IMG/VR virus record: IMGVR_UViG_3300034682_000108
Coordinates: 1-21,423 of that record
DNA length: 21,423 nucleotides
Source: a virus
Direction: 5' to 3' (one strand)
Shown here: positions 536-13,099 of the stretch, piece by piece
Numbering within the stretch: the first letter of the stretch is position 1
How the letters are laid out: every line of letters starts with the position of its first letter
Made by a program: the position numbers and the translations under genes
Notes under the pieces: model-generated
Database searches by the model: none
What the model was told of the DNA's origin: nothing
The model's input: the letters and a program-made list of their open reading frames with translations, nothing else

Positions 536-549
536 ACCTTCCTTTCATC

Positions 550-566: not shown

Positions 567-576
567 ATGGGTTGAA

Positions 577-705
577 TCAATGCCCGCAGGGCAGCGCGCC
601 GCCCACGGGTGTGCCGTCGGAGTTGAACGGGTGGCGGCGGCCGCAGGCAATGCAGGTCTTTTCTTGCGTTGCCGGAGCTGGCGCGGGTTGTGGTGTAGTG
701 CTCAT
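577..705 (-). CDS. 42-aa Cys/His-containing small phage protein
   Basis: The ATG at 703-705 overlaps the stop of the upstream gene as ATGA and is preceded by a strong ribosome binding site (GGAGGTGAT), which favours it over the longer in-frame extension to 762. The protein has a Pro/Ala-rich N-terminal third, then CIAC at residues 18-21 and PCGH at the very C-terminus. This C-x2-C ... C-x-H spacing suggests one small zinc-binding knuckle. I do not recognise the family. Its place in a coupled early operon next to DNA metabolism genes suggests a small regulatory or adaptor protein, but nothing in the sequence shows a partner. Confidence 0.6.
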   Translation of the reverse strand: MSTTPQPAPAPATQEKTCIACGRRHPFNSDGTPVGGALPCGH

Positions 706-1190
706 GCCATCACCTCCGGACGTCCAGCCAGGCCGCAGTAGCCGCGGCGGCGGGCCAGCCACAGGTGCTCAGGTTCTACCCAGCATGCGCCGCCATCGTC
801 GCCGGGCTCATGGGGCGTGAACACCAGCGCAGGGTTCATGCCGGCTGGGCGCTCTGGCTCGACCTGCGCGTCGAACTGCTTGCACATGACGCGAACGCGA
901 TGGACGGCATGTTCCGGCTCGGCCCAGCGCCACATCGCGCACTTCTCGCCCACGCAGTTGGCGGCCATGGACACGCCTGGCGTGGCATCCATCACCATGA
1001 TAGTTTTGGACCCAGTGGCTTCGCCGCCCAACTTGAATTCCTCGGCGCTGGCGTATGCCACGACTTCAGCGGCTTTGACTTCCTTGGTCAGGCTGCGGTT
1101 GTAAGCGACGGGAATGTCCACGTTGCCTGCCTGGGCCACACGCGCCATGGGGCACCACAGGTCGCGGGCTTGTTCGGTGGTGTGGGTCAT
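702..1190 (-). CDS. Conserved phage hypothetical protein with Cys-rich CPMARV / CGEKCAMWRW / GYCGLAG motifs
   Basis: A 162-aa protein with a good ribosome binding site (GGGAGG, 7 nt before the ATG at 1188-1190). LWCPMARV (residues 11-18, Cys13), NCVGEKCAMWRW (79-89, Cys79 and Cys84) and GYCGLAG (150-156, Cys152) resemble a family I know only as phage hypothetical proteins. Four cysteines in conserved-looking contexts suggest an Fe-S cluster or structural zinc; Cys103 and Cys136 look like additional, less patterned cysteines. Both ends are translationally coupled by ATGA overlaps to the 109-aa gene upstream and the 42-aa gene downstream. No function can be assigned; a metal-binding DNA or RNA metabolism protein is the most I would infer. 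Confidence 0.72.
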   Translation of the reverse strand: MTHTTEQARDLWCPMARVAQAGNVDIPVAYNRSLTKEVKAAEVVAYASAEEFKLGGEATGSKTIMVMDATPGVSMAANCVGEKCAMWRWAEPEHAVHRVRVMCKQFDAQVEPERPAGMNPALVFTPHEPGDDGGACWVEPEHLWLARRRGYCGLAGRPEVMA

Positions 1191-1516
1191 GCTGCACCTC
1201 CCTGGTTGGGTTTGGCGGCGACAGCAAAAAGCATGTACTCACCGGGCTGCAGCTGCGGTGCTGCGCATGGGCACAGCTCCAGATCGTTTGTGCCGTTTTC
1301 TTCTACCCACAGCGTGCCAATGCTTGTGCGCGCATCCAGGCCTTGCACAACCTGCTGCGCCTCGGCCTTCATCGCGTGCAGCGCAGTGATGGCCTTGCCC
1401 AGCTGCTCGCGCTCGACGGCCACAGAGAAGCGGGCACCAGGGCGCTGCTGCATGGCGCTGAACAGGTTCAAGGCTGGCTCGATGGCCTTGATGATTTCGT
1501 CGTGTGTCATGGTCAT
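1187..1516 (-). CDS. Hypothetical phage protein, 109 aa
   Basis: The ATG at 1514-1516 overlaps the RdgC stop codon as ATGA; a second in-frame ATG two codons later is equally possible. Residues 5-60 look helical (DEIIKAIEPALNLF, REQLGKAITALHAMKAEAQQVV). The C-terminal part, with CPCAAPQL and PGEYMLFAV, is more beta-like. I do not recognise the family. It sits between RdgC and the Cys-rich 162-aa protein in a chain of overlapping stop/start codons, so it is probably co-translated with them. Confidence 0.65.
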   Translation of the reverse strand: MTMTHDEIIKAIEPALNLFSAMQQRPGARFSVAVEREQLGKAITALHAMKAEAQQVVQGLDARTSIGTLWVEENGTNDLELCPCAAPQLQPGEYMLFAVAAKPNQGGAA

Positions 1517-2433
1517 GCCGCACCGCCTTCCTCGCCCTCGGCGGCTTCTTCCTTGCCGTGGCCGATCATGGCCACCAGGTCGGTGATGACGGCCGACACG
1601 GCATCCACTTCCAGCGTGGCCTGGGCGTAGAAGCTCGGAGCCTCGTCGTCCTCGGCGTCGGTGTGCGCAAACTCGATGCCCTTCAGGCGGAAGTCCTTGG
1701 TCAGACGGAAGGCTGTCTTACCGTCGTGCGTGAAGCCCATCGAGATAACCTGGAAGCGGGAGGACAGCGCTTCCTTGATGGCCTGATTGGCGCCGGCGAG
1801 CGAGCCCATCTTGATGCTGATCTTGCGGTCGCCCTGCTGCAGTGCAGCTTCTTCGCAGGGGTTGAAGACGCCGAAGGCTTCTTCGTTGCCGGCGATCCAG
1901 GCTGCCAGGCGTGTGGTCAGGCCGTGCTTCACGTCGCTGACGTGAATGGTTTCTGTTTTCACGCTGCCCGTGGCCTGGACCAATGCCGAGGTGATGTAGT
2001 CGGCCAGCTTCTTGCTGGTGGTGGGCACGATCAGATAGCCGGTGGTCTGCTGGTAGAAGCACGTGATGATCGCCGTGCGCGGGAATGCCTGCTTCGCCAG
2101 CTCCAGCAGTGCCGCGTCCTTGATTTCGGAGCGCTCCTTCTTGCTGGGCGTGCGGTTTTCAGCTGCCTTGAAGGCTTCGGCGAGTTCATCGACCTTGCGG
2201 TTGAGAACGGAACCAGGGATTTGCTTTTCGTCAATGCGGACGCGGAAGGCGACGCCGTTCTTGAATGGCAGGGCCAGCTGGTCGCTGTCGGTCACGGGGA
2301 CGAAGCCGACGCTGCGCATATGCGTTGGCGCGCACTCCTGAAATGGGTTGGCCTGCAGCTTGTCGTGCAGAGCCTCGGCGTCCATGCCGAAGTCGGCTTT
2401 GTAGACGATGGCAGATTTGATGGTTTGCTTCAT
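1513..2433 (-). CDS. rdgC: RdgC-family recombination-associated protein (phage-encoded)
   Basis: A 306-aa protein. The start MKQTIKSAIVYKA at 2431-2433 is chosen because the frame further upstream runs through the GHKL ATPase gene in another frame and loses protein-like composition. No good Shine-Dalgarno is visible before it. Length and layout match RdgC (about 300 aa in bacteria): an N-terminal half with a VGFVPV segment near residue 42, a central all-beta/alpha part (RTAIITCFYQQTTGYLIVPTTS split by short loops) and a C-terminal acidic tail rich in Glu. Host RdgC is a ring-shaped dsDNA-binding dimer that restrains RecA by covering DNA. A phage copy may protect phage DNA or steer recombination towards the phage Sak4-like/SSB system encoded at 10.8-12.5 kb. 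It lies 65 nt downstream of the GHKL ATPase and shares its promoter. Confidence 0.82.
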   Translation of the reverse strand: MKQTIKSAIVYKADFGMDAEALHDKLQANPFQECAPTHMRSVGFVPVTDSDQLALPFKNGVAFRVRIDEKQIPGSVLNRKVDELAEAFKAAENRTPSKKERSEIKDAALLELAKQAFPRTAIITCFYQQTTGYLIVPTTSKKLADYITSALVQATGSVKTETIHVSDVKHGLTTRLAAWIAGNEEAFGVFNPCEEAALQQGDRKISIKMGSLAGANQAIKEALSSRFQVISMGFTHDGKTAFRLTKDFRLKGIEFAHTDAEDDEAPSFYAQATLEVDAVSAVITDLVAMIGHGKEEAAEGEEGGAA

Positions 2434-2469
2434 AGTCGTGGTGGGCTGTGCCCGGTTGGTCAATGATGC

Positions 2470-2492
2470 GGCCGGGAAAAACGCGCCCGGCC
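2470..2492. repeat. Intergenic inverted repeat GGCCGGG / CCCGGCC
   Basis: A 7-bp perfect stem with a 9-nt spacer lies in the 65-nt gap between the GHKL ATPase stop and the RdgC start. On the transcribed strand the T-run is in the loop and not after the stem, so this is not a typical terminator. It could separate the expression of the two genes. Confidence 0.45.
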
Positions 2493-2498
2493 TTCGCG

Positions 2499-3578
2499 TT
2501 ACTTCAGGCGCCAGCTCTCGGCCTGCGTGATCAGGTCCTTGCGGAATGCCTCGATGGCAGCGCCTCGCATTTCGCGGCGGTTGGCGGCCAGCCATTTGCG
2601 CAGGACATCTGCTGGCGGCGTCACGGGCACCACGACCTCGCTGGTGTAGGCCTTGGTCTGGGTGACGAATGGGTAGTAGGCCGAATGCACCACCACCTTG
2701 GTCATGCCGCGCGCCACCAGGGCGTCCAGTTCTTCCTGGTTCTTGGCGATGACGGCGCCGGGGTGCTTGTTGCGGAACGCGCGGTAGCAGGCTTCCTTGA
2801 CCAGCGCTGGCGATCCGTACTCGGCGTATTCCAGGTCCTTGACGCCGGCGCCGATCATCTCGGCGATTTCCTCCCAGCGCTCGGTCTGGAACCACATGGA
2901 TTTCGTCGTGAAAAGCAGGTCAAAGCTCGACACGGTCTGGCGGTCGCGCTCCAGTTTCAGGAATTCGGGCTTCACGTCGTAGCCGAACTGCAGTTCGGTT
3001 TCGCAGACGAACAGGCCGCCAACGTACAGACGCCCAGGGCGGGCCCGCAGGATGCGGCCTTCCTGCACCTGGTGCACCTCGCCGATGTCGGTCTGCATGT
3101 GCAGGCAGCCGTCGCGGATCACGGCAATGTCGGCAGGGCTCAGGCCGCCGACCTCGAATTCCAGGCCTTCACGGCGCTGCGCAGCGGGCTCGTCCTCGAT
3201 GCACAGCACCTCGGCGTCGAACTGGCGCGACTGGCGGAAAACAGGCCTCCAGGTGCGGTCGCCGTTGTGGATGGTGACCGGGTAGCCGGCACGCGCCAAC
3301 ACCAGCAGCGCGATCTTGTAGCCCTCGCCGAAGCTGCCGATGGTGTCGGCGCTGTCGGCCTTGCTGGTCTGGCCCAGCAGCAGCGTGGCGGCCGACAGGC
3401 GGGAGTGGCGGCTGCGGATGTGCAGGCTGTCGGCGCGGAACTCGTACTCGAAGGGGCTGTCGCTATCGATTGCGTTCTGCAGCAGCTCGCGCACTGCTTC
3501 CGCCATGCCCCAGTGGCGAACGTAGGTCTTGGCGATGGGCAGCTCGTAGGTGCGGCTGCCCAAAGATAGAAGTGACAT
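2499..3578 (-). CDS. GHKL/HATPase-fold ATP-binding protein with degenerate G1 box
   Basis: A 359-aa protein. Two tandem ATGs occur at 3581 and 3578; the second is 5 nt from GGGAG and is preferred. The N-terminal 95 residues carry GHKL signatures: the N-box AVRELLQNAIDS (28-39, with Glu31 and Asn35 as the Mg/ATP residues), a GQTSK element (69-73) and the glycine box IGSFGEGYKIAL (80-91). The DxGxG box expected between them is replaced by SRHSRLS (56-62), so the usual adenine-contacting Asp is not evident. The remaining 260 residues are not recognised; they lack a histidine-kinase dimerisation helix, receiver or MutL-like nuclease motif. GHKL proteins (Hsp90, MutL, MORC, gyrase B) use ATP to clamp or dimerise. 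As first gene of a transcript also encoding RdgC and a clamp-like protein, a DNA-clamping role is plausible but unproven. Confidence 0.72.
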   Translation of the reverse strand: MSLLSLGSRTYELPIAKTYVRHWGMAEAVRELLQNAIDSDSPFEYEFRADSLHIRSRHSRLSAATLLLGQTSKADSADTIGSFGEGYKIALLVLARAGYPVTIHNGDRTWRPVFRQSRQFDAEVLCIEDEPAAQRREGLEFEVGGLSPADIAVIRDGCLHMQTDIGEVHQVQEGRILRARPGRLYVGGLFVCETELQFGYDVKPEFLKLERDRQTVSSFDLLFTTKSMWFQTERWEEIAEMIGAGVKDLEYAEYGSPALVKEACYRAFRNKHPGAVIAKNQEELDALVARGMTKVVVHSAYYPFVTQTKAYTSEVVVPVTPPADVLRKWLAANRREMRGAAIEAFRKDLITQAESWRLK

Positions 3579-3594
3579 CATTACTCCCGTGTTG

Positions 3595-3607
3595 TTTACG
3601 GGGTAAA
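3595..3607. promoter_or_regulatory. Operator O1, TTTAC-GGG-GTAAA
   Basis: A perfect 5+3+5 palindrome that overlaps by one base the -10 box of the leftward promoter in front of the GHKL ATPase. The same arrangement recurs at 9559-9576. Binding here would block RNA polymerase. Confidence 0.6.
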
Positions 3608-3612
3608 TAATA
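3607..3612 (-). promoter_or_regulatory. Putative -10 box (TATTAT) of the leftward GHKL ATPase-RdgC promoter
   Basis: On the minus strand TATTAT is followed directly by TTACCCCGTAAACA, closely matching TATAAT followed by TTACGCCGTAAACA at 9559 on the plus strand. No good -35 is seen; the hexamer at a 17-bp spacing is GTTCAC. The start codon lies about 30 nt downstream. Confidence 0.5.
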
Positions 3613-3621
3613 CACCAAGAA

Positions 3622-3634
3622 TTTACCGGGTGAA
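3622..3634. promoter_or_regulatory. Operator O2, TTTAC-CGG-GTGAA
   Basis: A second copy of the 13-bp element starts 27 bp from O1 and covers the -35/spacer region of the leftward promoter. One base departs from perfect symmetry. It is followed 3 bp later by a weaker half-matching element, TTCGC-GGC-GTGAA (3638-3650). Confidence 0.5.
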
Positions 3635-3653
3635 CACTTCGCGGCGTGAAATA

Positions 3654-3860
3654 TTATTTGTTGCGCTGACGCTGCACTTCTGCGCGGTAAATCTTCAGGA
3701 TGTGCGGGCGCATCGCCGGCCAGCTGGCCGGGTACTTCGTGGCCAGCCAGTCGGCTGTGCGTTTGACGTAGTCGGGCCTGACAGGGTGGCGCTCCAGGAA
3801 GTTGTAGAGCTGCTGCGGGTCGCCGTACTCACCGGCGCCAGGCTTTGCCACTGCGGACAT
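3654..3860 (-). CDS. Hypothetical phage protein, 68 aa
   Basis: A short basic protein (PGAGEYGDPQQLYNFLERHP, then RTADWLATKYP and a C-terminus of QRQRNK). Its start overlaps the 3' end of the VRR-NUC gene by 32 nt and has no clear Shine-Dalgarno, so translation probably depends on coupling. It is the last gene of the leftward operon that begins at 9465 and abuts the O1/O2 promoter gap. I do not recognise the family. The composition (Trp, Tyr, Arg, Lys) would suit a small nucleic-acid-binding protein. Confidence 0.6.
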   Translation of the reverse strand: MSAVAKPGAGEYGDPQQLYNFLERHPVRPDYVKRTADWLATKYPASWPAMRPHILKIYRAEVQRQRNK

Positions 3861-4218
3861 CGGCGATCAGTTGGTGCATTTCATCGGCAGACCGGATCAG
3901 GCGGTAGACACCGGCCGCGCGCTCGACGGCTTTCTGCCAGGTCTTCTGGTCGCCCTTTTGCCGGCCACCTTTGGGCACCTTGAATTCGGGCTGTACGGCA
4001 ACGCCTATCGTCTGGCCGACCATGTCGGGCGTGATGGTCACAGGCACGATCATGCCGGAATCGGCCATGCCAGCCTGGCCGACTTTGACGACGCGGCGCG
4101 GGTCATCGTAGGCGCGAAAAAGCCCGACCTGCTGGCGCCAGCACAGCACATCAGGGTGCTTGCCGGTCGCCAACAGGGCGGGGTTTTGGACTTCTCGGGT
4201 CTCTCGGTTCTGGGCCAT
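3829..4218 (-). CDS. VRR-NUC domain nuclease (PD-(D/E)XK superfamily)
   Basis: A 129-aa protein close to the size of a stand-alone VRR-NUC domain. The catalytic pattern is visible: VGQAGMADSGMIVPV (residues 46-60) gives the Gly-rich turn and Asp53, PEFK (77-80) gives the E-x-K pair Glu78/Lys80, and GGRQKGDQKTW (84-94) gives the conserved Gln91-containing helix of this family, followed by the terminal GVYRLIRSADE strand and turn. VRR-NUC proteins cut branched DNA; in phages they often lie beside SF2 helicases, as here, where the helicase stop is only 7 nt upstream. A Holliday-junction or flap nuclease role during recombination-dependent replication is likely. No Shine-Dalgarno is apparent. Confidence 0.75.
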   Translation of the reverse strand: MAQNRETREVQNPALLATGKHPDVLCWRQQVGLFRAYDDPRRVVKVGQAGMADSGMIVPVTITPDMVGQTIGVAVQPEFKVPKGGRQKGDQKTWQKAVERAAGVYRLIRSADEMHQLIADVRSGKAWRR

Positions 4219-4225
4219 GCCGGCA

Positions 4226-5911
4226 TTATGCCGCGTTGCTGACCACCAGCGGCTGCGCGGTGCGCTCCAGCAGCGCCTTCAGGTCCTTAGGCTTCATGCG
4301 CCGGATGTCGTGCAGCGTGACGCCAAACTCCTGGTGCGTGGGCAGCCCGCTGCGCTTCTTGGCAGCCTCCAGGTTGTCGAGCACGGCGGCCAGCAGGGCA
4401 TCTTTCTTCTCGCGCGCTGCCACAATCTTCATGGCCTGCACCCTGCCGATGCCCTGGGCGATCAGCTGATCCAAGGACTTCGCCTGGCCCTGCAGCATGC
4501 GCTTTTGCCGGCGCAGGCGCTCGTCCTCGGCCTGATCGATAAGCTTCAGCTCTGCCTCGACCTGCTCCATCTCTATGACTTCGCGCTTTTTATAGATATG
4601 GTCGCAGTGCGGGCATGCCTTGTCGCCGTCTTTGTTCTTGTGGTCAGGGTCGTGATACCGCCTACACTTCGGGCACGCCTTGGCGCCCTCTTCGCCGCTT
4701 TCGTTGTCGTTGGCTGCCTGCCGGCGAGCCTTCTTCTCCGGTGGTGACAGCGTCCACTCGCGCTCCCAGTGCGGCAGCCCGTGTTCCTCGATTACGCCCA
4801 CGCAGTCCAGGATAATGGCTTTTTCCTTGTCGGGGTGCGGCCGCAGCACGCGGCCCGTGCCCTGCATGAAAATGCGCAGGCTCTTGGTCTTGCGCAGCCA
4901 GATGGCCGTGGTGGCGTAGGGGATGTCCACGCCCTTCACCAGCAGGCCAACGCCGGTCAACACGTCGATGTCGCCGCGGCCCAGGGCCTTCACGGCATTG
5001 CGTCGCACGCCATCCTCGGTCATACCGTCCAATGACTGGGCCCGGTATCCGCCGTCGCGGAAAGCCTGGGCGAATTTCTCGGCCATGCGCACGGTCGGGC
5101 AGAACGCTATGGCCGGCTTGCCGTGGCTGTAGTTGCGGTAGTGCTCCACGACGTCGCCGTATACGCGCGGAGCGTCCAGCTCCTTTTCCAGCTCCTGCGG
5201 GTCGTAGTCGTCGCCCTTCAGTTTGGTAAGGTCGGCGACGCCTTCAACCAGGTGCACGTCTGGCTTGTAAGCGTCGTAAGGCGACAGGAATCCGTTATCG
5301 ATCAACCATGCCTCGGTTGGGCCGTGCACAACGACGTCGTACAGCCCGCCCTCGCTTCGCGCGAAGCTCTGACGATCCATGCGGATCAGTGTGGCCGTCA
5401 GCCCCAGTAGTCTGGCGTCTGGCCAGTAGCCAATCACACGGCGCCACGTCGCAGCCAGGCTCAGGTCGCATTCGTCGGCGATGATCTGGAACGGGTTGAG
5501 CCACGCCAGCGCGCAGTCGGGTTTCCATAGCTCGCCGTCCAGCCGCCGCACCAGGGTCTGAACACTAGCGATCACGGCCTTGGCGCCGGTCTTCACGAAG
5601 CTGCGGCCGAATTCCAGGAACTCATGGGCGACGATCGCGCGGCGCGTCTTGTCGCTGCACACCAGCTGGTGCTCAATGCCGTACTCGGCCCAGGTCATGG
5701 CGGCCTGGTCGAGCAGCTCCTCCTGATCAACAATCCACAGCACCTGGCGGTCAGTCGTTGTGTACTTCTCGACAATGAACGACGCCGTGCGGGTCTTTCC
5801 GCCTCCAGTCGGGCAGCGCAGCACGATGCCCTTGGCTCCGGCCTGGTAGTGCTGCGAAATTTCGCGCACCATCGGCAGCTGATATTCGGGGCGCAGTACG
5901 ATCTTGCTCAT
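4226..5911 (-). CDS. SF2 DEAD/DEAH-box helicase with C-terminal zinc ribbon
   Basis: A 561-aa protein. The start MSKIVLRPEYQ at 5909-5911 is chosen because it overlaps the upstream stop as ATGA and has GAGGG 7 nt before it; the frame extends further but without protein-like sequence. Motifs in order: RPEYQ at the N-terminus, Walker A PTGGGKT (34-40), motif II DECD (146-149), motif III LTAT (171-174) and motif VI QGTGRVLRPH (350-359). Residues 413-436 form a CPKC...CPHC zinc ribbon, and the rest is helical and charged. Motif II has Asp where Cys/Ala-His is usual in related helicases. The enzyme should unwind or remodel DNA with ATP. Its position between a PD-(D/E)XK protein and a VRR-NUC nuclease suggests a branched-DNA processing unit. 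Confidence 0.85.
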   Translation of the reverse strand: MSKIVLRPEYQLPMVREISQHYQAGAKGIVLRCPTGGGKTRTASFIVEKYTTTDRQVLWIVDQEELLDQAAMTWAEYGIEHQLVCSDKTRRAIVAHEFLEFGRSFVKTGAKAVIASVQTLVRRLDGELWKPDCALAWLNPFQIIADECDLSLAATWRRVIGYWPDARLLGLTATLIRMDRQSFARSEGGLYDVVVHGPTEAWLIDNGFLSPYDAYKPDVHLVEGVADLTKLKGDDYDPQELEKELDAPRVYGDVVEHYRNYSHGKPAIAFCPTVRMAEKFAQAFRDGGYRAQSLDGMTEDGVRRNAVKALGRGDIDVLTGVGLLVKGVDIPYATTAIWLRKTKSLRIFMQGTGRVLRPHPDKEKAIILDCVGVIEEHGLPHWEREWTLSPPEKKARRQAANDNESGEEGAKACPKCRRYHDPDHKNKDGDKACPHCDHIYKKREVIEMEQVEAELKLIDQAEDERLRRQKRMLQGQAKSLDQLIAQGIGRVQAMKIVAAREKKDALLAAVLDNLEAAKKRSGLPTHQEFGVTLHDIRRMKPKDLKALLERTAQPLVVSNAA

Positions 5912-6510
5912 GCCGCCGCCCTCGCCTGCTGGGCCTGCAGTTTCGCGGCGTCGCGCTGGTGGTAGGCCTCCCACATGCGCAGGTTGGCCAGGCGGGCAAT
6001 GTCGATGACCTGCTGCGGCGTCAGCCGGTGGGCATCCTTGTTTGTCGTGGCGCGGCGCTCGCAGCAAACCTGCACGCGGCCGTTATGCTCCCAAAGCAGC
6101 AGCACGCCGCTGGCCTTGCTGGGCAGGCACTCCAAAAGCTCTGGCTTCCAGATTTCGCGCGGCAGCGCATAGTAATGTTTCCAGACCTTGCGCGGCCACT
6201 CCCGCGGCGTGCTGTCGTATATCCGCTCCTGCCTAGTCCAGATGTGCCGTCCGTTGGCGTCGTAGCCCTTCTCTTCGGGCTTGTACTGGCCGGTGAACAC
6301 GCGCTCCCACCACTTTTCCTTTTTGGCGTCTGCCTTCAGGTCTGCGCGGCTGATCTTCACCTCGACGTCGATGATGCGCAGGTCGGTCGTCACGCCCAGG
6401 ACGTCGCATTCTCTGCCCGTCCAGTTGCAGTTATCGACCAGCACCACGCATTTGCGCGCCAGGGTCTGCAGGGCGATGGCCCTGGCTATGTTGTGTTCGT
6501 TCCATTCCAT
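5908..6510 (-). CDS. PD-(D/E)XK nuclease-like (MmcB-like) phage protein
   Basis: A 200-aa protein. The start MEWNEHNIAR at 6508-6510 is preferred because AAGGA lies at good distance before it; an upstream in-frame ATG at 6555 has no such support and overlaps the previous gene. Residues 29-55 show the restriction-nuclease-like core: NWTGRECDVLGV (29-40, with Glu34 and Asp36), then the strand LRIIDVEVKISRADL (44-58) with Glu50-x-Lys52. WW at 67-68 and a YYALP segment follow. The closest match I know is the MmcB/DUF-type PD-(D/E)XK group, whose members are DNA-repair nucleases or inactive relatives. It overlaps the helicase start by ATGA and may act with it. Confidence 0.6.
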   Translation of the reverse strand: MEWNEHNIARAIALQTLARKCVVLVDNCNWTGRECDVLGVTTDLRIIDVEVKISRADLKADAKKEKWWERVFTGQYKPEEKGYDANGRHIWTRQERIYDSTPREWPRKVWKHYYALPREIWKPELLECLPSKASGVLLLWEHNGRVQVCCERRATTNKDAHRLTPQQVIDIARLANLRMWEAYHQRDAAKLQAQQARAAA

Positions 6511-6533
6511 AGGTTTCCTTGCGCCCGGCAGCA

Positions 6534-6848
6534 TCATGCCGCGGGCTCCATCCATTCGTCGGGCACGGGGTCGGGCAGCGCGGGCTTGTGCAGCACGTCG
6601 TCGGCAGGCATGCCCCAGTGCTTTCGGGCATCAACACGGCGCCAGGCGTGCGTCGTTCCGCTGTAGCCGTCGCCGCTCCGGCTCTTGCAGGGCTCGCCCA
6701 CCATGGCGTGGCACTGTGGGCAGGCGACAAACGCCACGCTCCGGTCGGTGCGCAGGTAGCGCCCGCGCTGGTCCGGCACCGCCACAAAGATGAAATGCGG
6801 GTCGCGGTCCTCGAAGGCCACCAGGCTGATGCGAGGCGTCACGGTCAT
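6534..6848 (-). CDS. Phage zinc-finger protein (C-x2-C-x7-C ... H), 104 aa
   Basis: The start at 6846-6848 overlaps the upstream stop as ATGA and has GGGAC before it; the longer frame to 6965 is rejected. An N-terminal beta-like region (LVAFEDRDPHFIFVAVPDQRG, broken by a turn) precedes the finger: CPQCHAMVGEPC then a short loop and THAWRR. The pattern CPxC-x-G-x-PC ... H-x-x-R is typical of small phage zinc-finger proteins thought to bind DNA. The tail PDPVPDEWMEPAA is acidic and proline-rich. Function unknown. Confidence 0.65.
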   Translation of the reverse strand: MTVTPRISLVAFEDRDPHFIFVAVPDQRGRYLRTDRSVAFVACPQCHAMVGEPCKSRSGDGYSGTTHAWRRVDARKHWGMPADDVLHKPALPDPVPDEWMEPAA

Positions 6849-7087
6849 GCCGCGTCCCGCTGGGCAAAGCCTGCATCCCAGGCTTGGGCGGCCACGCGCT
6901 TGGCGTGGGCTTCGGCGTACTCGCCTGGAATCGGAGCGATGCCGCTGCCCGTGGTGCGCCACCACTCGGTGAAGGCCGGCAAGCGGTTCTTCAGCGCGCG
7001 GTCGCGGCGGATTTCTTTGAAGAGGGCGATGACGAAGCCGCCGATGGCGGCCAGGATCATGCCGTTGATGGGGTCGATGGTGATCAT
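6845..7087 (-). CDS. Small membrane-anchored phage protein, 80 aa
   Basis: The start at 7085-7087 overlaps the upstream stop (ATGA). Residues 9-26 (GMILAAIGGFVIALFKEI) form one hydrophobic helix followed by a basic stretch (RRDRALKNR), so it would anchor with the C-terminus inside by the positive-inside rule. The C-terminal part, with WWRTTG and helical AEAHAKRVAAQAWDAGF, is soluble. I do not recognise it. Lying in an early operon, it might tether a replication or exclusion function to the membrane, but this is inference. Confidence 0.6.
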   Translation of the reverse strand: MITIDPINGMILAAIGGFVIALFKEIRRDRALKNRLPAFTEWWRTTGSGIAPIPGEYAEAHAKRVAAQAWDAGFAQRDAA

Positions 7088-7299
7088 AGAGTTTCTGGGA
7101 AGAGTTCCAGGGTTTGCGGGCCAGCCTCGCGGGCCTGGCTCCGGACAGTGGCGGCGATCCGCAGGCGGCCGCTTTTCGCGGCCTTCACTGCGGTCTTGGT
7201 CAGCCCCAGCTTGCGCGCGCAGTTTGGGCCGATGGGCTCGTCGCCGAGGTAGGCGAATGGCCGGGTGCGCCGGCCGCAGATGGAGCAGACGGGTTTCAT
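7084..7299 (-). CDS. Small zinc-ribbon-like phage protein, 71 aa
   Basis: The start MKPVCSICGRR at 7297-7299 has GAGGG 5 nt upstream and overlaps the methyltransferase stop as ATGA, so the much longer antisense-like frame is not used. Cys5 and Cys8 (CSIC) and Cys27 (PIGPNCARKLG) form a three-Cys half of a treble-clef-like fold. The IGPxCAxKLGL pattern is common in small phage proteins without known role. The C-terminal half is basic (TKTAVKAAKSGRLR). Confidence 0.65.
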   Translation of the reverse strand: MKPVCSICGRRTRPFAYLGDEPIGPNCARKLGLTKTAVKAAKSGRLRIAATVRSQAREAGPQTLELFPETL

Positions 7300-8909
7300 G
7301 CTGCCCTCGCCTTCCGCGAGTTGTCGTTGGCAGCCGCCTGCTTCTGCTCGGCGTAGTTGGCCGCAACGATGGCACGGGCCAGCGGCGGGCAGACGCTGTT
7401 GCCGCACATCCGAACCTGGGCATCCTTCGGCAGGGCACGGCCATCGGCACCGCGGTCGATTACGTAGTTTTCCGGGAAGCCCTGGGCTCGGTACAGCTCG
7501 CGCGGCTGCAGCATCCGCATGCCGATGTCGGCGATCACGTAGTCCTGGCCGAGCACAGTCACGACGCCGAAGCGGTGCTTGGTGGTGACCGTGTGCATGG
7601 GCTCGTCCAGCCGCGGGTCCTGGTCGGTGCCGTAGTATTTCAGCAGCAGCGCGCGCACCTCGGCGTGATGGGTGCCCTGGGCGCTGACGGTGTGCAGGGG
7701 CTCGGCCGTTCCGGCGCTGTTGCTGGTGCCGCGCAGCTTGACCAGGTTGCTGGTGACCAAGCCCATGACGTTGCCGGTGCTGGGGCGCTTGGGCGTGCCG
7801 CCGGCGGTGACGGTGTGCACTGGTTCGTCGGCTGCAGACCCGACGCTGCCGGTGCGGAGCTTGGTCAGGTGCGCAGCCACCAGGGCCTGCGGGCCGCCCT
7901 GGGCCAAGACCGTCGGCGCTGGCGCGTCCACGGGCTGCCCGGTCTTCCCGGGTGCGGGATCGCCGCCGAAGTGCTTGGCGAGATAGGCCGCCACCAGCGC
8001 GCTGTTTCCGCCGCTGGCCACGACCGTGGGCAGCTGCCCAGTGATAGGCCGGTTCCCGTGGCTCCAGCGCTTCACGCCAGACGGCGACACGTCGGAGTGC
8101 GCGCTGTCGATCAGCAGTGGCGCCGCAAGTCCTGGCACGATGAACGGCTTGTCGCTGTCCAGCACATAGCGCTTGATGCCGTGCGCGATGCGGCGCAGCG
8201 TCGAATCCTTCAGCGGCTTGTCGCGCTCGAAGATGCTGGGCGCCAGGATGTCCCAGTCGATGCAGTCGGCCGCCGTCAGGTACGGCTTGCGGCCTGGGCC
8301 ATGGGTGGGTTCGGGCCACACGATGGGCTTGCCGTCGCGGCGGGCCACCAGGAACAGGCGCTTGCGGATTGTCGGCGCGCCATAGTCGCAGGCCCGCAGC
8401 TCGCGGTACTCAATGACATAGCCCAGGTTCTCCAGGCGGGATTTCCAGTGGTGGAAAGTACGGCCCTTGCGCTTCGGGCACGGCTTGCCGCCTTTGAGCA
8501 GCGGCCCCCAGGTCTGGAATTCCTCGACGTTCTCCAGGAAGATCATGCGGGGCTGAACCGCCTTGGCCCACTTGATCACGACGCCGGCCAGGCCGCGGAT
8601 TTTCTTGGCGACCGGCTTGCCGCCCTTGGCCTTGCTGAAGTGCTTGCAGTCCGGCGATGCCCACAGCAGGCCCACCGGGCGACCGGCCGTCACGGTCAGC
8701 GGATCGACCTCGAACACGTCGCTGACATAGTGGCGGGTCTGGGGATGGTTGACCTCATGCAGGCTCACGGCCTGGGGGTCGTGGTTGACGGCGATGTCAA
8801 CGTGGCGGCCGATGGCCTGCTCGATGCCAGTGCTGGCGCCGCCGCCGCCGGCGAACAGATCGACTACCAGCTCATGGGCCAGAGGAAGGATGAACTGGCT
8901 GCCGATCAT
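7296..8909 (-). CDS. dcm: DNA (cytosine-5) methyltransferase, Dcm type, with repeat-built variable region
   Basis: A 537-aa enzyme that transfers methyl from S-adenosylmethionine to cytosine C5. Motifs in order: I DLFAGGGGASTGIE (17-30), IV SPDCKHFSKAKG (85-96, catalytic Cys88, PDC instead of PPC as in many phage enzymes), VI ENVEEF (126-131), VIII IRKRLFLVAR (181-190) and a C-terminal QPRELYRAQGFPE (468-480) with CGNSVCPPLA (502-511). The ribosome binding site GGAGG lies 7 nt before the ATG. Residues 290-445 between VIII and the C-terminal motifs contain about four copies of a 33-41 aa unit ending in P-x-x-TV. No cognate endonuclease is visible, so it is probably an orphan enzyme that shields phage DNA from host restriction. 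The C-terminus AANDNSRKARAA looks disordered. Confidence 0.93.
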   Translation of the reverse strand: MIGSQFILPLAHELVVDLFAGGGGASTGIEQAIGRHVDIAVNHDPQAVSLHEVNHPQTRHYVSDVFEVDPLTVTAGRPVGLLWASPDCKHFSKAKGGKPVAKKIRGLAGVVIKWAKAVQPRMIFLENVEEFQTWGPLLKGGKPCPKRKGRTFHHWKSRLENLGYVIEYRELRACDYGAPTIRKRLFLVARRDGKPIVWPEPTHGPGRKPYLTAADCIDWDILAPSIFERDKPLKDSTLRRIAHGIKRYVLDSDKPFIVPGLAAPLLIDSAHSDVSPSGVKRWSHGNRPITGQLPTVVASGGNSALVAAYLAKHFGGDPAPGKTGQPVDAPAPTVLAQGGPQALVAAHLTKLRTGSVGSAADEPVHTVTAGGTPKRPSTGNVMGLVTSNLVKLRGTSNSAGTAEPLHTVSAQGTHHAEVRALLLKYYGTDQDPRLDEPMHTVTTKHRFGVVTVLGQDYVIADIGMRMLQPRELYRAQGFPENYVIDRGADGRALPKDAQVRMCGNSVCPPLARAIVAANYAEQKQAAANDNSRKARAA

Positions 8910-9226
8910 GCTGCAGCCTCCACCAGCCAGTCAGCCAGCACCTCGACACGCATGCCGAGCCGCACGGCGATGTCGGCCTCCAGGCGCGCGCCGTTCGACT
9001 TCAGCCAGCCGGGCAGCAGGGCCACGCCCGTGCAGTCCATCAGCATCTTGATGTCGGCACGCATGTGCTGGTGCCACTCGGCATCGTCAGGCACGCCGTT
9101 GTCGACGGGGTTCACGACCTCGAAGCCGGCGGCTCGCAGGGCCTGCTCGGCGGCGTAGAAGGCGGGCTTGTTGAATTCCGGAAAGCCGGTCATCGGGCCG
9201 GACACGTACAGGATGCCGCGCTTCAT
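8906..9226 (-). CDS. DUF4406 / nucleoside 2-deoxyribosyltransferase-like protein
   Basis: A 106-aa protein with AGGAG 8 nt before its ATG. YVSGPMTGFPEFNKPAFYAA (residues 7-26) is the signature N-terminus of the DUF4406 group; it is followed by a helix and strand (LRAAGFEVVNPV, 30-41), then ADIKMLMDCTGVALLPGW (57-74) and SNGARLEADIAVRLGM (77-92). This is the layout of small nucleoside deoxyribosyltransferase-fold proteins, with Glu83 in the position of a possible catalytic acid. Related phage enzymes act on nucleotides or bind nucleotide-derived ligands; the substrate is not known. It is coupled by ATGA overlaps to the XRE gene upstream and the methyltransferase downstream. Confidence 0.8.
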   Translation of the reverse strand: MKRGILYVSGPMTGFPEFNKPAFYAAEQALRAAGFEVVNPVDNGVPDDAEWHQHMRADIKMLMDCTGVALLPGWLKSNGARLEADIAVRLGMRVEVLADWLVEAAA

Positions 9227-9465
9227 GCCGCTGCTCCTGGTTTGGCGCCTGCCTTCTTGGCAGCGGCGCGTGCGGCCACGGCCTTGTGCAGGTCGTCGGC
9301 CGACACGGCACCACCGGTGCCGATGCGGATGGCCTCCACGGTGTCGGGCTTCGGCATGCTCATGCCGGTTTCCCAGCGCCAGACCTGCACGCCGGATGCA
9401 TGCACCAGCTTGCCAAATGCGGCGCGGCTGAGCTTGCGCAGTTTTCTGTATTCCTTGAGTTCCAT
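9223..9465 (-). CDS. XRE/Cro-like helix-turn-helix regulator
   Basis: An 80-aa protein whose first 45 residues form a lambda-repressor-like HTH: LKEYRKLRKLSRAAFGKLV (3-21) then ASGVQVWRWETGMSMPKPDTV (23-43), with recognition helix around VQVWRWE. The C-terminus is Ala/Lys-rich. It is first in the leftward early operon and faces the divergent promoter region at 9466-9594, as expected of a Cro-type switch protein. It is a good candidate to bind the 9488-9523 inverted repeat or the TTTAC-N3-GTRAA operators, but no direct evidence links it to either. Its ribosome binding site is weak (AACAAGATC). Confidence 0.75.
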   Translation of the reverse strand: MELKEYRKLRKLSRAAFGKLVHASGVQVWRWETGMSMPKPDTVEAIRIGTGGAVSADDLHKAVAARAAAKKAGAKPGAAA

Positions 9466-9487
9466 GATCTTGTTAAGTGGTTAGCAC

Positions 9488-9523
9488 GTTGCAATATTAC
9501 ACGCGGCTAAATATTATTGCAAC
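9488..9523. promoter_or_regulatory. Inverted repeat GTTGCAATA-N18-TATTGCAAC over the leftward early promoter
   Basis: A perfect 9-bp inverted repeat (9488-9496 and 9515-9523) whose arms overlap the -10 and -35 of the predicted leftward promoter. The arm spacing places both on one face of about two and a half helical turns. It is probably a repressor or autoregulation site for the XRE gene. Confidence 0.5.
9494..9522 (-). promoter_or_regulatory. Predicted leftward early promoter (XRE-DUF4406-Dcm operon)
   Basis: On the minus strand, -35 TTGCAA (9517-9522) and -10 TAATAT (9494-9499) are separated by 17 bp; each matches 4 of 6 consensus bases. The XRE start codon is about 30 nt downstream. Confidence 0.45.
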
Positions 9524-9558
9524 CAGCGTAAAGCATCACACAAGTCTAAAGACGTGTG

Positions 9559-9564
9559 TATAAT
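9559..9564 (+). promoter_or_regulatory. -10 box TATAAT of the rightward recombination operon
   Basis: A perfect consensus -10, 30 nt before the exonuclease ATG. No convincing -35 is visible at 16-18 bp (TCACAC at 17 bp), so an activator may be needed. Its last T is the first base of operator O3. Confidence 0.55.
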
Positions 9565-9576
9565 TTACGCCGTAAA
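9564..9576. promoter_or_regulatory. Operator O3, TTTAC-GCC-GTAAA
   Basis: A perfect 5+3+5 palindrome placed against the -10 box exactly as O1 is placed against its own promoter 6 kb away. It is followed 3 bp later by TTCAC-AGG-ATGAA (9580-9592), which includes the AGGA ribosome binding site of the exonuclease gene. Confidence 0.6.
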
Positions 9577-9594
9577 CACTTCACAGGATGAATT

Positions 9595-10620
9595 ATGGAA
9601 AACTACTTGCAGGGCATGTTTGCCGACATGCCGAACGCGGTCTATCACGGCCACGTCCACATCGGTAGCAGCGGCTTCAAGCTGCTGGCCCGCAGCCCGC
9701 TGCACTTCTGGCACGCCAGCCCGATGAACCCGGATCGCGAGCCGCGCGAACCCAGCGTCTACATGACCATGGGCACGGCCTGGCACACCGGCATCTGGGA
9801 GCCCGAACTTTTCGACGGCAGCTACGCCGCCAAGCCGGACATCAGCCCCATGAGCACCGTGGCGAAACTGCTGGACGAAGCGCTGGCCGGCTTTGACGCT
9901 TTCAAGGCGCGCTATGTCGCCATCCCCGAAGGCCTGACCAAGACCAGCAAGGAAGGCAAGGCGCTGCTGGCCGAGCTGGAGGCCCGCGGCCAGACAGGCG
10001 TCGAGGCCGACAAGCTGGCCCAGGTGCTGGAGCTGGCGCCGACGCTGATCGGCAAGACGCTGCTGTCGGCCGAGAACCTGGACAAGGTTCGCGCCATGAC
10101 GGAAGCCGCGCGCCGCCATCCGGTAACGCAGGCCATCTTCGCGCTGCCCGGCGGCATGTCCGAGCACTCGATTTTCTGGGTCGATCCGGTGACCGGGGCG
10201 CCATGCCGCATCCGCCCAGATTACGCCGTGCCGCCCTGCTCGATGTTCCCCTACGGCCTGGTGGTGGACGGCAAGTCGAACGACGACAGCAGCCCGGTAG
10301 GCTTTGCCCGCAGCGCCTGGAACTCGGAAATGTATTTCCAGGCCGCGTTCTACGCCGACGGCTTCCAGCAGCACTTCAAAACCGAGAAGCCGCCCGTCTT
10401 TGCCTGGCTGGCCCAGGAGCGCGAAGCACCGTTCGCCACGACATACTACGCGGCGCCGCCCGACTTCATCGAGTACGGCCGCCGCAAGTACCGCCGACTG
10501 CTCACCCTGTTCGCGGAGTGCCTGCGCACCGGCCAGTGGCCCAGCTACAGCCAGCAGGTGCAGGACCTGGCGCTGCCAGCCTGGGCCGCCAAGGAAATCG
10601 ACGCCGAGGTGCGGGCATGA
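9595..10620 (+). CDS. RecE/YqaJ-like PD-(D/E)XK exonuclease (exodeoxyribonuclease VIII-type)
   Basis: A 341-aa protein; AGGA lies 6 nt before the ATG. N-terminal helices SSGFKLLARSPLHFWHA (25-41) and GTAWHTGIWEPE (60-71, His64) match the entry motif of phage RecB/RecE-family nucleases. The catalytic core follows: Glu190 in GGMSEHSIFWVD, Asp209 in IRPDY, the D-x-K pair Asp225/Lys227 in VVDGKSN, and Gln249 in MYFQAAFYADGF. DGKSN departs from the usual DLKTT but keeps D-x-K. The enzyme should resect dsDNA ends to give 3' single strands for annealing. It is first in an operon with a Sak4-like ATPase and SSB, a typical phage recombination cassette. Its stop overlaps the next start as ATGA. Confidence 0.82.
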   Translation: MENYLQGMFADMPNAVYHGHVHIGSSGFKLLARSPLHFWHASPMNPDREPREPSVYMTMGTAWHTGIWEPELFDGSYAAKPDISPMSTVAKLLDEALAGFDAFKARYVAIPEGLTKTSKEGKALLAELEARGQTGVEADKLAQVLELAPTLIGKTLLSAENLDKVRAMTEAARRHPVTQAIFALPGGMSEHSIFWVDPVTGAPCRIRPDYAVPPCSMFPYGLVVDGKSNDDSSPVGFARSAWNSEMYFQAAFYADGFQQHFKTEKPPVFAWLAQEREAPFATTYYAAPPDFIEYGRRKYRRLLTLFAECLRTGQWPSYSQQVQDLALPAWAAKEIDAEVRA

Positions 10621-10826
10621 GGGCATCCATCCTTGGCGCCGCCATTGCCGTGATTGCCCGCACCGCCGGCTCGCTGGCGTTGGCCATGCCGGCGCCGCTT
10701 CAGGAACCCGGGTGGCCCGGAATGCCCGGCGCCAGCACCCGCAAGCCTGCCGGCAAACGCCCGGCCGGCAGCAAACTCGCCCGCATGGCCCGCGAGGGCC
10801 GCGTGGGTGTTTCACAACCACGTTGA
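10617..10826 (+). CDS. Small basic protein with hydrophobic N-terminus, 69 aa
   Basis: The ATG at 10617 overlaps the exonuclease stop as ATGA, with GAGG 7 nt before it. Residues 2-25 (RASILGAAIAVIARTAGSLALAM) are hydrophobic with two Arg and could be a weak signal or membrane helix; the rest is Pro/Gly/Arg-rich and ends in KLARMAREGRVGVSQPR. I do not recognise the family. It lies between the exonuclease and the Sak4-like ATPase, 9 nt before the latter. Confidence 0.6.
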   Translation: MRASILGAAIAVIARTAGSLALAMPAPLQEPGWPGMPGASTRKPAGKRPAGSKLARMAREGRVGVSQPR

Positions 10827-10835
10827 AAGACCATC

Positions 10836-11945
10836 ATGTCCTTTGAAATCAAAGTCGCAGAGCGCCAAGGCGCGCGCCTGCTGATCCAGCTGTCCGGCGT
10901 GTCGGGCGGCGGCAAGACGCTGACCGGCCTGCTGCTGGCCTACGGCCTGACCGGCGGCGACGGCAGCAAGATCATCGGCATCGACACCGAAAATCGCCGC
11001 ATGTCGCTGAACGCCAGCAAGGCCACCTACGACCTGGCACAGCAGCAGCTCGGCCTGGCCCAGCCCGTGACACCGTTCCGCACCATCGACTTCTTCGCGC
11101 CGTTCTCGCCGGCACGCTACATCGAGGCCATCGACACCGCGTGCAAGGCCGGCGCCGAGGTCATTGTGATCGACAGCGTGACCCACGAATGGGAGAGCGA
11201 AGGCGGCTGCGAGTGGATCGCCAACCAGACACGTTTCCCAGACTGGAAGCGCGCCAAGGCGGAGCACAAGCGCTTCATGACCTTCATGCTGCAGTGCCCG
11301 GCCCACATCGTTGCCTGCACCCGGGCCCGCGAGAAGGTGGACTTCAGCGACCCGAAGAACCCGAAGCCCTTGGGCATCCAGCCCATCCAGGAGAAGAACT
11401 TCAGCTTCGAGGCAACTGTCAGCCTGATGATGCACGACCAGGGCCGCAGCCAGGACGTGCTGAAGTGCCCAGCCGAGCTGCAGGCCATCATGGGCCGTGG
11501 CCAGGGTTACCTGACGGCGGCCGACGGCCAGGCGCTGCGCTCCTGGGTGGACGGCGGCGCCCCTGTAGACCCTGCCGTCGAGCACTGGCGCGGCGTCCTG
11601 CTGAACGAATGCGAGAAGGGCGTCGCAGCGCTGCGGGCGAAATGGAACTCCATGCCCAAGGGAATGAGTGGCAAGCTGGGCACGGCCTTCCGTGACCAGT
11701 GCGCGGCCAGCGCCGAGGCCTACGACCAGGCGCGCCAGCAGCAGCAGGATGGCCAGGGCGCCGGCAGTGACGCGTTCGACGCACTGAACCAAGCGGCCGC
11801 ACAGCAGCAGGTGCAGCAGCCAGCAGCTGACGCCGATGCTCCAGCAGCTGCCAGCGCTGGCGCAGACGCCACCACGGCGGCCGCCACGTCCACGACAGCC
11901 CAGGCGCCCGCAGCGGCACCAGCTGAAGACGGCATCAAGTTCTGA
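10836..11945 (+). CDS. RecA-core AAA ATPase, Sak4-like single-strand annealing/pairing protein
   Basis: A 369-aa protein. Walker A is GVSGGGKT (21-28), followed by [11 protein letters not shown] (48-57) and Walker [13 protein letters not shown] (109-120, Asp113). The core ends near residue 240. The C-terminal 110 residues are Gln/Ala-rich, look disordered and end in an acidic tip, DGIKF, that resembles an SSB-type tail. Phage Sak4 proteins are a minimal RecA core that promotes annealing with the phage SSB; the order exonuclease-ATPase-SSB here supports that role. It is longer than typical Sak4 (about 220-240 aa) because of the C-terminal extension. A generic phage nucleotide-binding ATPase is the alternative. 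Confidence 0.78.
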
Positions 11946-11956
11946 CGGGAGGCACC

Positions 11957-12469
11957 ATGGCATCAGTTAACAAGGTGATCCTGGTCGGCAATCTGGGCCG
12001 CGATCCTGAAATGCGCACGTTCCCCAGCGGCGACCAGGTGGCGAACGTCACCATCGCCACCACGGACCGCTGGCGCGACAAGACCACCGGCGAGAACAAG
12101 GAAGCCACGGAGTGGCATCGCGTCGTGTTCAATGGCCGCCTCGCCGAGATTGTCGGCCAGTACCTGAAGAAGGGCTCGCAGGTCTACGTCGAGGGCTCGC
12201 TGCGCACGCGCAAGTGGACCGACCAGGCCACCGGCCAGGAGCGCTACGCCACCGAAATTCGCGCCGACAGCATGCAGATGCTGGGCAATCGGCAGGACGC
12301 CGGCGGCGCCAGCAGCACTGGCCCGCGGGATCATATTGATCCTCCGAGTGGAGGCCAGCAGCGGCAAAGCGCCGCTCCTGCTACCACCCAGCTCACTGCC
12401 GCAGCGCCACCTCCGGCCCAGCGTGCTGCGTCCGGTTTTGACGATATGGATGACGACATCCCATTCTGA
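11957..12469 (+). CDS. ssb: Single-stranded DNA-binding protein
   Basis: A 170-aa protein; GGGAGG lies 5 nt before the ATG, 11 nt after the Sak4-like gene. Residues 1-110 are the OB fold with the classic opening [19 protein letters not shown] (2-20), [15 protein letters not shown] (51-65) and [18 protein letters not shown] (69-86). Residues 111-155 are a Gln/Pro/Ala linker, and the end, DDMDDDIPF, is the acidic tip through which SSB recruits partners. It should coat single strands from the exonuclease and cooperate with the Sak4-like ATPase. The operon ends just after it at a terminator. Confidence 0.95.
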
Positions 12470-12498
12470 GATCGCCGCTGGTGAAGCGAGAGAAGCAG

Positions 12499-12523
12499 AA
12501 AGGCCCCACGTGGGCCTTTTTCT
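12499..12523 (+). terminator. Intrinsic terminator of the exonuclease-Sak4-SSB operon
   Basis: AAAGGCCC, a short CACGT loop and GGGCCTTT, followed by a T-run ending TTCT. It lies 30 nt after the SSB stop on the plus strand. Confidence 0.85.
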
Positions 12524-12546
12524 ATTCACGAATCCACAGATGGGGA

Positions 12547-12735
12547 ATGTTGAATATCAAGTCAGAGTCGTTTTTAGAATTCGACTCGTCGCATGGCAGG
12601 CATTTTGAATCCACCGACAGTGCAAATCGCTTGGCGGCGGAAAAAGCAAAGTGTCATTTGGAGGGCAGTCAATACCGACCAAGGTTCACGCAAATGTTTG
12701 CCGTGACAATTAGATTCCCGACTTGTGAAAAATGA
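12547..12735 (+). CDS. Possible small protein, 62 aa (doubtful)
   Basis: An open frame from the ATG at 12547 in an AT-richer stretch than its neighbours. A GTG at 12481 would lengthen it but would place the SSB terminator inside the gene, so it is not used. GGGGA lies too close to the ATG to be a good ribosome binding site. The product contains a KSESFLEFDSSHGRHFES segment and an Arg/Phe-rich end. I recognise no family. It may be a moron-type gene or non-coding. Confidence 0.3.
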   Translation: MLNIKSESFLEFDSSHGRHFESTDSANRLAAEKAKCHLEGSQYRPRFTQMFAVTIRFPTCEK

Positions 12736-12794
12736 ATCACAGGACGTAAAAGGGTTTCGCTTTGGGGGCATTGCAGAAGGAGCCCAACCAGGAA

Positions 12795-13061
12795 ATGACA
12801 CCGGAAGACATTGTCGGCATACAGCAGAAGCTCGGCCTCTCTGACGGCAAGATGGCGCAAGCACTTGGGGTCACCCGCCAGACCTGGCGGAACTGGCGCC
12901 GTGGTGCCAAGTGCCCGAAGTTCGCTCAGAATGCCTTGCTCTGGCTGATGGAGCTGCGCCGCCTTGAGCCGGCCAACGATAATCTCCCGGATCGAATCCG
13001 CATGCTCGCCACGCTGGTATGTGTTTTGTTTTTCGGCGTAGCGGCTGAGATTACGCCGTAA
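12795..13061 (+). CDS. Helix-turn-helix DNA-binding protein, 88 aa
   Basis: The ATG at 12795 follows AGAAGGAG (12 nt away) and AGG close by; the frame can be read from 12762 but without better support. Residues 12-40 form an HTH, LGLSDGKMAQALGVTRQTWRNWRRG in two halves, with recognition helix VTRQTWRNWRRG, then a helix KFAQNALLWLMELRRLEP. This matches small phage and plasmid regulators with an XRE-like fold. The last 20 residues are hydrophobic (RMLATLVCVLFFGVAAE), which is odd for a regulator and may be a late extension. It could regulate the integrase or the early operators; a TTACGCCGTAA palindrome lies at its own stop codon. Confidence 0.65.
   Translation: MTPEDIVGIQQKLGLSDGKMAQALGVTRQTWRNWRRGAKCPKFAQNALLWLMELRRLEPANDNLPDRIRMLATLVCVLFFGVAAEITP
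13051..13061. promoter_or_regulatory. Operator-like palindrome TTACGCCGTAA
   Basis: Identical to the central 11 bp of O3 (9565-9575), here at the 3' end of the HTH gene and including its stop codon. The outer base pair is A/C and not T/A. It may be a chance match. Confidence 0.3.
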
Positions 13062-13066
13062 CCACC

Positions 13067-13095
13067 AAGGCCAGGGCCCCCGACCTGGCCTTTTT
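13067..13095 (+). terminator. Intrinsic terminator after the HTH gene
   Basis: Stem GGCCAGG (13069-13075) / CCTGGCC (13084-13090) with an 8-nt loop, followed by TTTTTCTTT. It lies 8 nt after the HTH stop. Confidence 0.85.
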
Positions 13096-13099
13096 CTTT

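Follow-up and report, generated by a model that had tools for sequence, protein, structure and literature searches.

In lambdoid phages, early promoters carry short symmetric sites, repeated over the −10 and −35 boxes, which are bound by CI and Cro through a lambda-repressor-like helix-turn-helix (HTH). On IncP plasmids the operator TTTAGCSGCTAAA is that of KorB, a ParB-like protein. The Aca proteins (anti-CRISPR-associated autorepressors) are small phage HTH proteins for which PMC9410906 and PMC9410881 describe inverted repeats inside the core promoter, where RNA polymerase is blocked. The present analysis concerns a palindrome, TTTAC-N3-GTAAA, located at two promoters about 6 kb apart in the IMG/VR virus record IMGVR_UViG_3300034682_000108. 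The window is this whole record of 21,423 bases, probably a fragment of a phage genome; the motif scan was thus limited to the record and its relatives rather than a full phage genome. Given that the palindrome is operator-like, lies at promoters of two different early operons (GHKL/RdgC/clamp and exonuclease/Sak4/SSB) and is conserved in relatives, the best reading is that a single regulator represses both in a coordinated way. The sequence gives good support to a real and conserved promoter-operator module that would act like this, and the palindrome probably serves as operator for a small HTH repressor of the phage itself, most likely the 88-residue protein encoded at 12795–13061.

The likeness to lambdoid CI/Cro lies in symmetric sites at early promoters that overlap both the −10 and −35 boxes and in an HTH of the lambda-repressor type. 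The candidate regulator differs in having 88 residues and lacking a C-terminal peptidase domain, no divergent CI/Cro pair is seen in the window, and the sites are 13 bp with a 3-bp centre. The KorB operator also has 13 bp, TTTA-rich half-sites, a 3-bp centre and a distribution over several promoters, but differs at the fifth base. Aca1, Aca2 and Aca10 share with this locus a small HTH protein and repeats in the promoter core (their Foldseek matches have weak E-values); however, Aca genes lie behind acr genes and act as repressors of the operon they belong to, whereas here the HTH gene is apparently a unit of its own and the site occurs at two operons far apart. The Aca sites given in PMC9410881 differ from the window motif in sequence and length. 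Likewise, HigA2-type antitoxins and the restriction controller C.Kpn2I resemble the 88-residue protein in fold class, with weak E-values. The earlier note on this DNA knew of no described operator with such a sequence, and an open-access literature search, beyond whose reach most subscription papers lie, also found none among the matches listed. The operator sequence is thus likely new and the repressor-operator pair apparently undescribed, while the kind of system and its mechanism are well known.

The palindrome and its promoters

On the minus strand TATTAT (3612–3607) runs into TTTACCCCGTAAA (3607–3595), and on the plus strand TATAAT (9559–9564) runs into TTTACGCCGTAAA (9564–9576). As had been claimed, the first T of the palindrome is the last T of the −10 box at both promoters. 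Instead of many copies away from promoters, the window holds only these two exact copies, each at a predicted promoter. The GHKL module extends beyond the earlier description: the −35 hexamer TTCACC of this promoter forms the left half of a second palindrome, TTCACCCGGTAAA, with a centre-to-centre distance of 27 bp from O2 to O1. This good third site (3622–3634) and two weak ones (3638–3650 and 9580–9592), all scored by weight matrix, had not been listed before. The sites and promoters are as follows:

3595..3607, minus strand: putative operator O1 of the GHKL promoter; exact match, top-enriched palindrome type, joint top matrix score
3622..3634, minus strand: putative operator O2 of the GHKL promoter; covers the −35 hexamer; one-mismatch match, third matrix score (17.1 bits)
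3638..3650, minus strand: possible weak third site, TTCACGCCGCGAA; matrix score 7.8 only, chance level
9564..9576, plus strand: putative operator O1 of the exonuclease promoter; exact match, joint top matrix score; the exonuclease promoter of the related contig L010 has the same module
9580..9592, plus strand: possible weak site, TTCACAGGATGAA; matrix score 7.2 only
3607..3634, minus strand: predicted promoter of the GHKL/RdgC/clamp operon, TTCACC-16-TATTAT, from the consensus scan
9535..9564, plus strand: predicted promoter of the exonuclease/Sak4/SSB operon, ATCACA-18-TATAAT, from the consensus scan

Since the weak site at 9580–9592 overlaps a presumed ribosome-binding site, its conservation in L010 (TTCGCAGGATGAA) could be due to something else. 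Scanning positions 1–14800 with a simple sigma-70 consensus, blind to the palindrome, gave only three promoter-like sites (mean in shuffles, 1.6); two are the promoters of the earlier note and the third is at 9489–9517 on the plus strand. Since a similar scan of L010 (4200–10100) missed its operator-bearing promoters, this promoter scan is only supportive.

Allowing up to one mismatch, there are three matches in the window (3595, 3622 and 9564) where 0.02 are expected, a count reached in 0 of 100 shuffles. TTTAC-Nk-GTAAA occurs twice at k=3 and at none of the 12 other spacers within 0–12. Because the motif had been chosen post hoc by the earlier note, all gapped-palindrome types were counted instead (5-bp half-sites, spacers 0–9, 10,240 types, first-order expectation). 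TTTAC-N3-GTAAA is the most enriched of the 10,240 types in the window (n=2, Bonferroni 0.001), and likewise in the contigs L009 (n=2, 0.011) and L013 (n=6, 4.5e-10), and is second in L010 (n=2, 0.008; all Bonferroni). A weight matrix trained only on other phages scored 9564 and 3595 at 21.8 bits and 3622 at 17.1, the next site following at 11.3; in simulated sequence, 0.015 matches per window reach 17.1 bits and 0.2 reach 11.3. A wider comparison used 81 loci, namely the best 80 of 128 confirmed Sak4 relatives and the window, some of them near-copies. Across these loci 16 copies occur at spacer 3 against at most 5 at any other spacer, and 11 of the 16 exact sites lie outside any open reading frame (ORF) of at least 80 residues, compared with 6 of 400 random window positions; the other 5 lie under such ORFs, at least some of them antisense. 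The statistics exclude a chance origin of the sites. The fused string TATWATTTACSCNGTAAA was also tried as a general element and rejected: of 21 viral-contig stretches, one (L024) is the L010 contig, and the 20 others (28–51 % guanine-cytosine (GC) content), having no match to the searched window proteins, are read as chance.

Conservation in related phages

The module recurs at corresponding promoters of relatives. L010 encodes an exonuclease 71 % identical to that of the window, and its exonuclease promoter reads TATAATTTACGCTGTAAA; a second L010 promoter, upstream of a 109-residue ORF, has the sequence TATAATTTACCCATCGTAAA, in which the centre is 5 bp, and is preceded at a distance of 27 bp by a perfect TTTACCGCGTAAA. 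Counting both phages, four promoters thus show the one-base overlap with the −10 box. In L009 a site lies 2 bp after TATAAT, ahead of a clamp/GHKL gene run. Of the six sites of the L013 contig, one is upstream of the exonuclease gene and one precedes a methyltransferase-like gene; one each follows the helicase gene and a primase-like gene, and the remaining two follow genes that match by eye the 129-residue and 68-residue ORFs of the window; the place after these counterparts is that of the 3595 site in the window.

In other cases the operator serves as a −35 box, TTTACA: in L013 (9835, 13942, 17900 and 20684), L072, L082 and L095, it is positioned 17 bp from TATATT, TAAACT, TACTAT, TATTAT or TATAGT. 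Fusion to the −10 box, the arrangement that had been described before, is therefore one of two placements, both inside promoter cores. No TTYAC-N3-GTRAA match was found in the L011, L012 and L014 contigs. In keeping with phage operators in general, the inverted repeat occurs at more than one early promoter above chance and is conserved at the corresponding promoters of relatives. Sequence and statistics establish that the sites exist, that they are fused to promoter elements, that corresponding promoters conserve them and that they co-occur with the HTH gene described below. The proposal of coordinated repression by one regulator thus holds as regards the operator-like character, the two early operons and the corresponding places kept in relatives, and the interpretation as a whole is partly supported.

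Two observations concern the surroundings of operator copies in relatives. In L072, L082, L095 and L089 (near 11700), a second palindrome seen by eye, TAGGGT-N2/3-ACCCCTA, lies a few bases from the operator and is possibly the site of another regulator. In L051 (about 6640–6760; the 62 % GC L009 contig), an operator copy in an AT-rich stretch after a primase-like gene is flanked by a long imperfect inverted repeat.

Candidate regulators

Two candidate proteins, an 80-residue XRE protein and the 88-residue HTH protein, had been proposed without preference. Comparison among relatives favours the HTH protein and disfavours the XRE protein. The genes and terminators of this region are:

12795..13061, plus strand: 88-residue HTH protein, the leading repressor candidate; two-way motif association, lambda-repressor-like model, near-invariant recognition helix
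9223..9465, minus strand: 80-residue XRE protein, divergent from the exonuclease gene; HTH_31 and HTH_3; rival candidate
12498..12522, plus strand: strong hairpin with T-rich tail, probable terminator, between the SSB and HTH genes; RNA fold −18.8 kcal/mol, z −3.3
13067..13092, plus strand: terminator-like hairpin after the HTH gene; from the consensus scan and RNA fold

A relative of the 88-residue protein detected by tblastn (E up to 1e-3) defined a locus as HTH-positive. Of the 11 such loci, 9 contain the exact motif, against 1 of 70 HTH-negative loci, the one being L143 (32 % GC), and among 5,941 palindrome types TTTAC-N3-GTAAA is the best separator of the two classes (p 2.1e-9). With near-copies and low-GC negatives dropped, the counts are 6 of 8 and 0 of 48 (p 8.6e-7). 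The reverse test used ORFs of at least 45 residues from five carriers as queries and counted L143 as a non-carrier. The HTH locus was the best carrier-associated family (9/9 carriers vs 1/72); this figure came from an antisense ORF over the HTH gene, the sense ORFs giving 7/9 vs 2 to 5 of 72. Whole or truncated, the 88-residue protein is present in all 9 motif-bearing loci analysed. Among the whole contigs of 50 of the 80 loci, 8 of 10 with a strong HTH match (E below 1e-14) carry the motif, compared with 2 of 40 others (Fisher 3.5e-6). The sharing of the site by two promoters, and its retention by relatives alongside a small HTH gene, make it most likely the site of an ordinary kind of phage repressor.

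An AlphaFold2 model of the 88-residue protein has a mean predicted local distance difference test score of 82.9, with block means of 92–96 over residues 1–50, where four helices including the helix-turn-helix form a lambda-repressor-like arrangement. Ten homologues share T27, R28, Q29, T30, R32, N33, W34 and R35 without change, the recognition helix being almost unaltered. Family matches are weak. Foldseek returned HigA2 (best), Aca2, Aca1, Aca10, C.Kpn2I and HipB, none with E below 0.001; HigA2 was the best match by both Foldseek and PDB sequence (E 0.0077 and 0.016 at best; PDB-sequence profile 0.016), and such matches indicate the fold class only. With 88 residues and an all-helical model, the protein lacks the C-terminal LexA-like peptidase/dimerisation domain of a CI repressor. 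A distant HTH relative in Aeromonas phage vB_AsaM-56 was set aside, having a different recognition helix and a genome with no TTYAC-N3-GTRAA site. Neither an XRE search of viral contigs nor exonuclease and HTH alignment searches of genome contigs confirmed a relative, and XRE and HTH gave no match to plasmids.

The HTH gene is probably a separate transcription unit beside the integrase gene, outside the exonuclease operon. The hairpin at 12498–12522, which separates the gene from that operon, is absent from the listing of the consensus scan. As to the own-promoter repeat of Aca systems, nothing between the SSB and HTH genes of the window scores more than 5.1 bits; L013 and L089 each have a site in the interval that separates the HTH unit from the divergent exonuclease gene. 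At 13050–13062, over the HTH stop codon, ATTACGCCGTAAC has the 11-bp core TTACGCCGTAA in common with the 9564 operator.

Several findings weigh against assigning the operator to the 88-residue protein. The phages that bear it are close kin: on the Sak4 tree (59 rows) no more than three changes account for the HTH label, and concordant independent pairs number 2.6 of 3 by locus and 1.5 of 3 by contig, never opposite, neither value being significant. Weak HTH matches (E 8e-9 to 2e-4) exist in 14 of the 40 contigs counted as HTH-negative. In L067 (the L012 contig) the HTH gene is present but no site; the helicase match extends to base 2 of this contig, which therefore lacks the clamp-operon side, and the gene opposite its exonuclease gene is of the ribbon-helix-helix type instead. 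L089 and L011, both HTH-bearing, have only one-mismatch sites, three in L089 (one upstream of the exonuclease gene, one after the helicase gene) and two in L011 (one after its 68-residue ORF), and G051 has one site with no HTH match. No strong site was found by weight matrix ahead of the HTH gene itself in the window. Finally, the L083, L095 and L096 contigs retain the operator despite a deleted or truncated HTH gene. L083, nearly identical to L082 over the compared stretch (about 2700–4600 vs 9930–12000 of L082), lacks 216 bp spanning the HTH gene except its first 29 bases, and its integrase seems cut short; L095 (near 6478) and L096 (near 4896) encode a 43-residue truncated HTH and show no integrase ORF at the place that it occupies in L082 and L072. 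An operator kept without an intact HTH gene fits a recent loss of the lysogeny module, and equally another binding protein. The three contigs are possible natural losses of repressor and integrase.

Such retention would be expected if the operator were bound by a regulator encoded outside the window: the 78-residue HTH protein of the L009 and L013 clamp operons, a CI-like repressor in the missing part of the genome, or a host protein. Relatives of the 78-residue protein occur in the L009 and L013 contigs and in L072, L082 and L089, and the window and the L010 contig may end before its place. A match to it is nevertheless found in only 3 of 81 loci, the motif is outside its eight best-associated palindrome types, and a host factor would probably leave the absence of the motif from HTH-negative relatives unexplained; a regulator from outside the window is rather unlikely. 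The 78-residue protein had no match in annotated phages, and viral contigs gave only its two source contigs. Binding by the divergent 80-residue XRE protein, as a Cro-like early regulator, was the first assumption, plausible after L010, where an XRE protein 43 % identical occupies the same place and the same module is found; the window XRE gene itself adjoins the 9564 operator. The assumption failed on the wider locus set and was dropped. The XRE gene is missing from 6 of 9 motif-bearing loci, and XRE-positive L077, L089, L107 and L113 are without the exact motif. Loci with the XRE gene but not the HTH gene do not have the motif, and TTTAC-N3-GTAAA does not rank among the eight palindromes most associated with XRE-positive loci. 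In other phages, XRE relatives adjoin other palindromes (KLER1-1, ZRG1 and L042–L044), although these are not transferred to the window XRE. That phages of the L014 type pair another small XRE with TTCAC-N4-GTGAA speaks for such a role in principle, yet for the window XRE it is quite improbable. Least credible is that no dedicated regulator exists and that the likeness stems from promoter-core constraints or chance. It could appeal to there being only two exact window copies, to the resemblance of TTTAC and GTAAA to promoter hexamers and to TTTACA as the −35 box of relatives, but this is very hard to reconcile with the specificity for spacer 3 in the window and the 81 loci, the symmetry kept on the side of the palindrome away from the hexamer, the six L013 copies and the 0.02 window matches expected.

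Two further observations concern XRE proteins. The 63-residue XRE of the L014 type is found with TTCAC-N4-GTGAA in 5 of 5 loci (L081, L084, L091, L092 and L097) and in 0 of 76 others. In L014, where positions 6009, 9897 and 13855 are listed for this pairing, the core of the palindrome lies upstream of the exonuclease gene and adjoins the XRE gene. The pairing is taken as a sign that the association method finds regulator-operator pairs; the five loci also form one clade. In the window, an inverted repeat, TTGCAATA ... TATTGCAA (9489–9523), lies between the XRE and exonuclease genes and is a possible XRE operator; TTGCA/TGCAA palindromes also adjoin the related XRE in phage KLER1-1.

Early operons and proposed regulation

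The first genes behind the two promoters are:

2499..3581, minus strand: GHKL-like protein, behind the 3595 promoter; phrog_6077; weak sacsin-type ATP-binding domain, below cut-off
9595..10620, plus strand: PD-(D/E)XK exonuclease-like protein (DUF3799), behind the 9564 promoter

Downstream (leftward) of the GHKL-like gene is RdgC, followed at the window edge by a sliding-clamp-like gene, within which the window ends. Its product matches the L013 counterpart with E 1.8e-12, and the label 'clamp' is a reading of the sequence. Behind the exonuclease gene are an AAA_24 ATPase gene, named Sak4 following the earlier note, and SSB. Searches of the window for tRNAs and Rfam families gave no match.

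For transcription starts, binding, dimerisation, repression and stage of action, we infer the following. A dimer of the HTH protein would bind O1 at both early promoters, touching the −10 box and excluding RNA polymerase. With a transcription start 7 bp beyond the −10 box, O1 would span about −7 to +6 and O2 about −34 to −22, and at the GHKL/RdgC/clamp promoter a second dimer would sit on O2 over the −35 box. One regulator would thereby silence both early operons together, in the lysogen or late in infection.

More tentatively, these may be temperate phages of a group that has no detectable CI/Cro pair, in which a stand-alone 88-residue HTH protein encoded beside the integrase gene acts as master repressor. 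Its 13-bp operator would be placed in several dispersed early promoter cores, as −35 box or −10 fusion, and would have stayed unchanged through divergence, and members that have lost the gene together with some or all of the integrase would be natural virulent derivatives. This somewhat doubtful extension aside, the HTH protein and its palindrome would give a concrete regulator-operator pair in a group of phages for which metagenome contigs are almost the only source here. If true, the pairing would explain the joint switching of replication/clamp and recombination genes 6 kb apart, and related phages could be searched for the regulon with the motif as a DNA signature.

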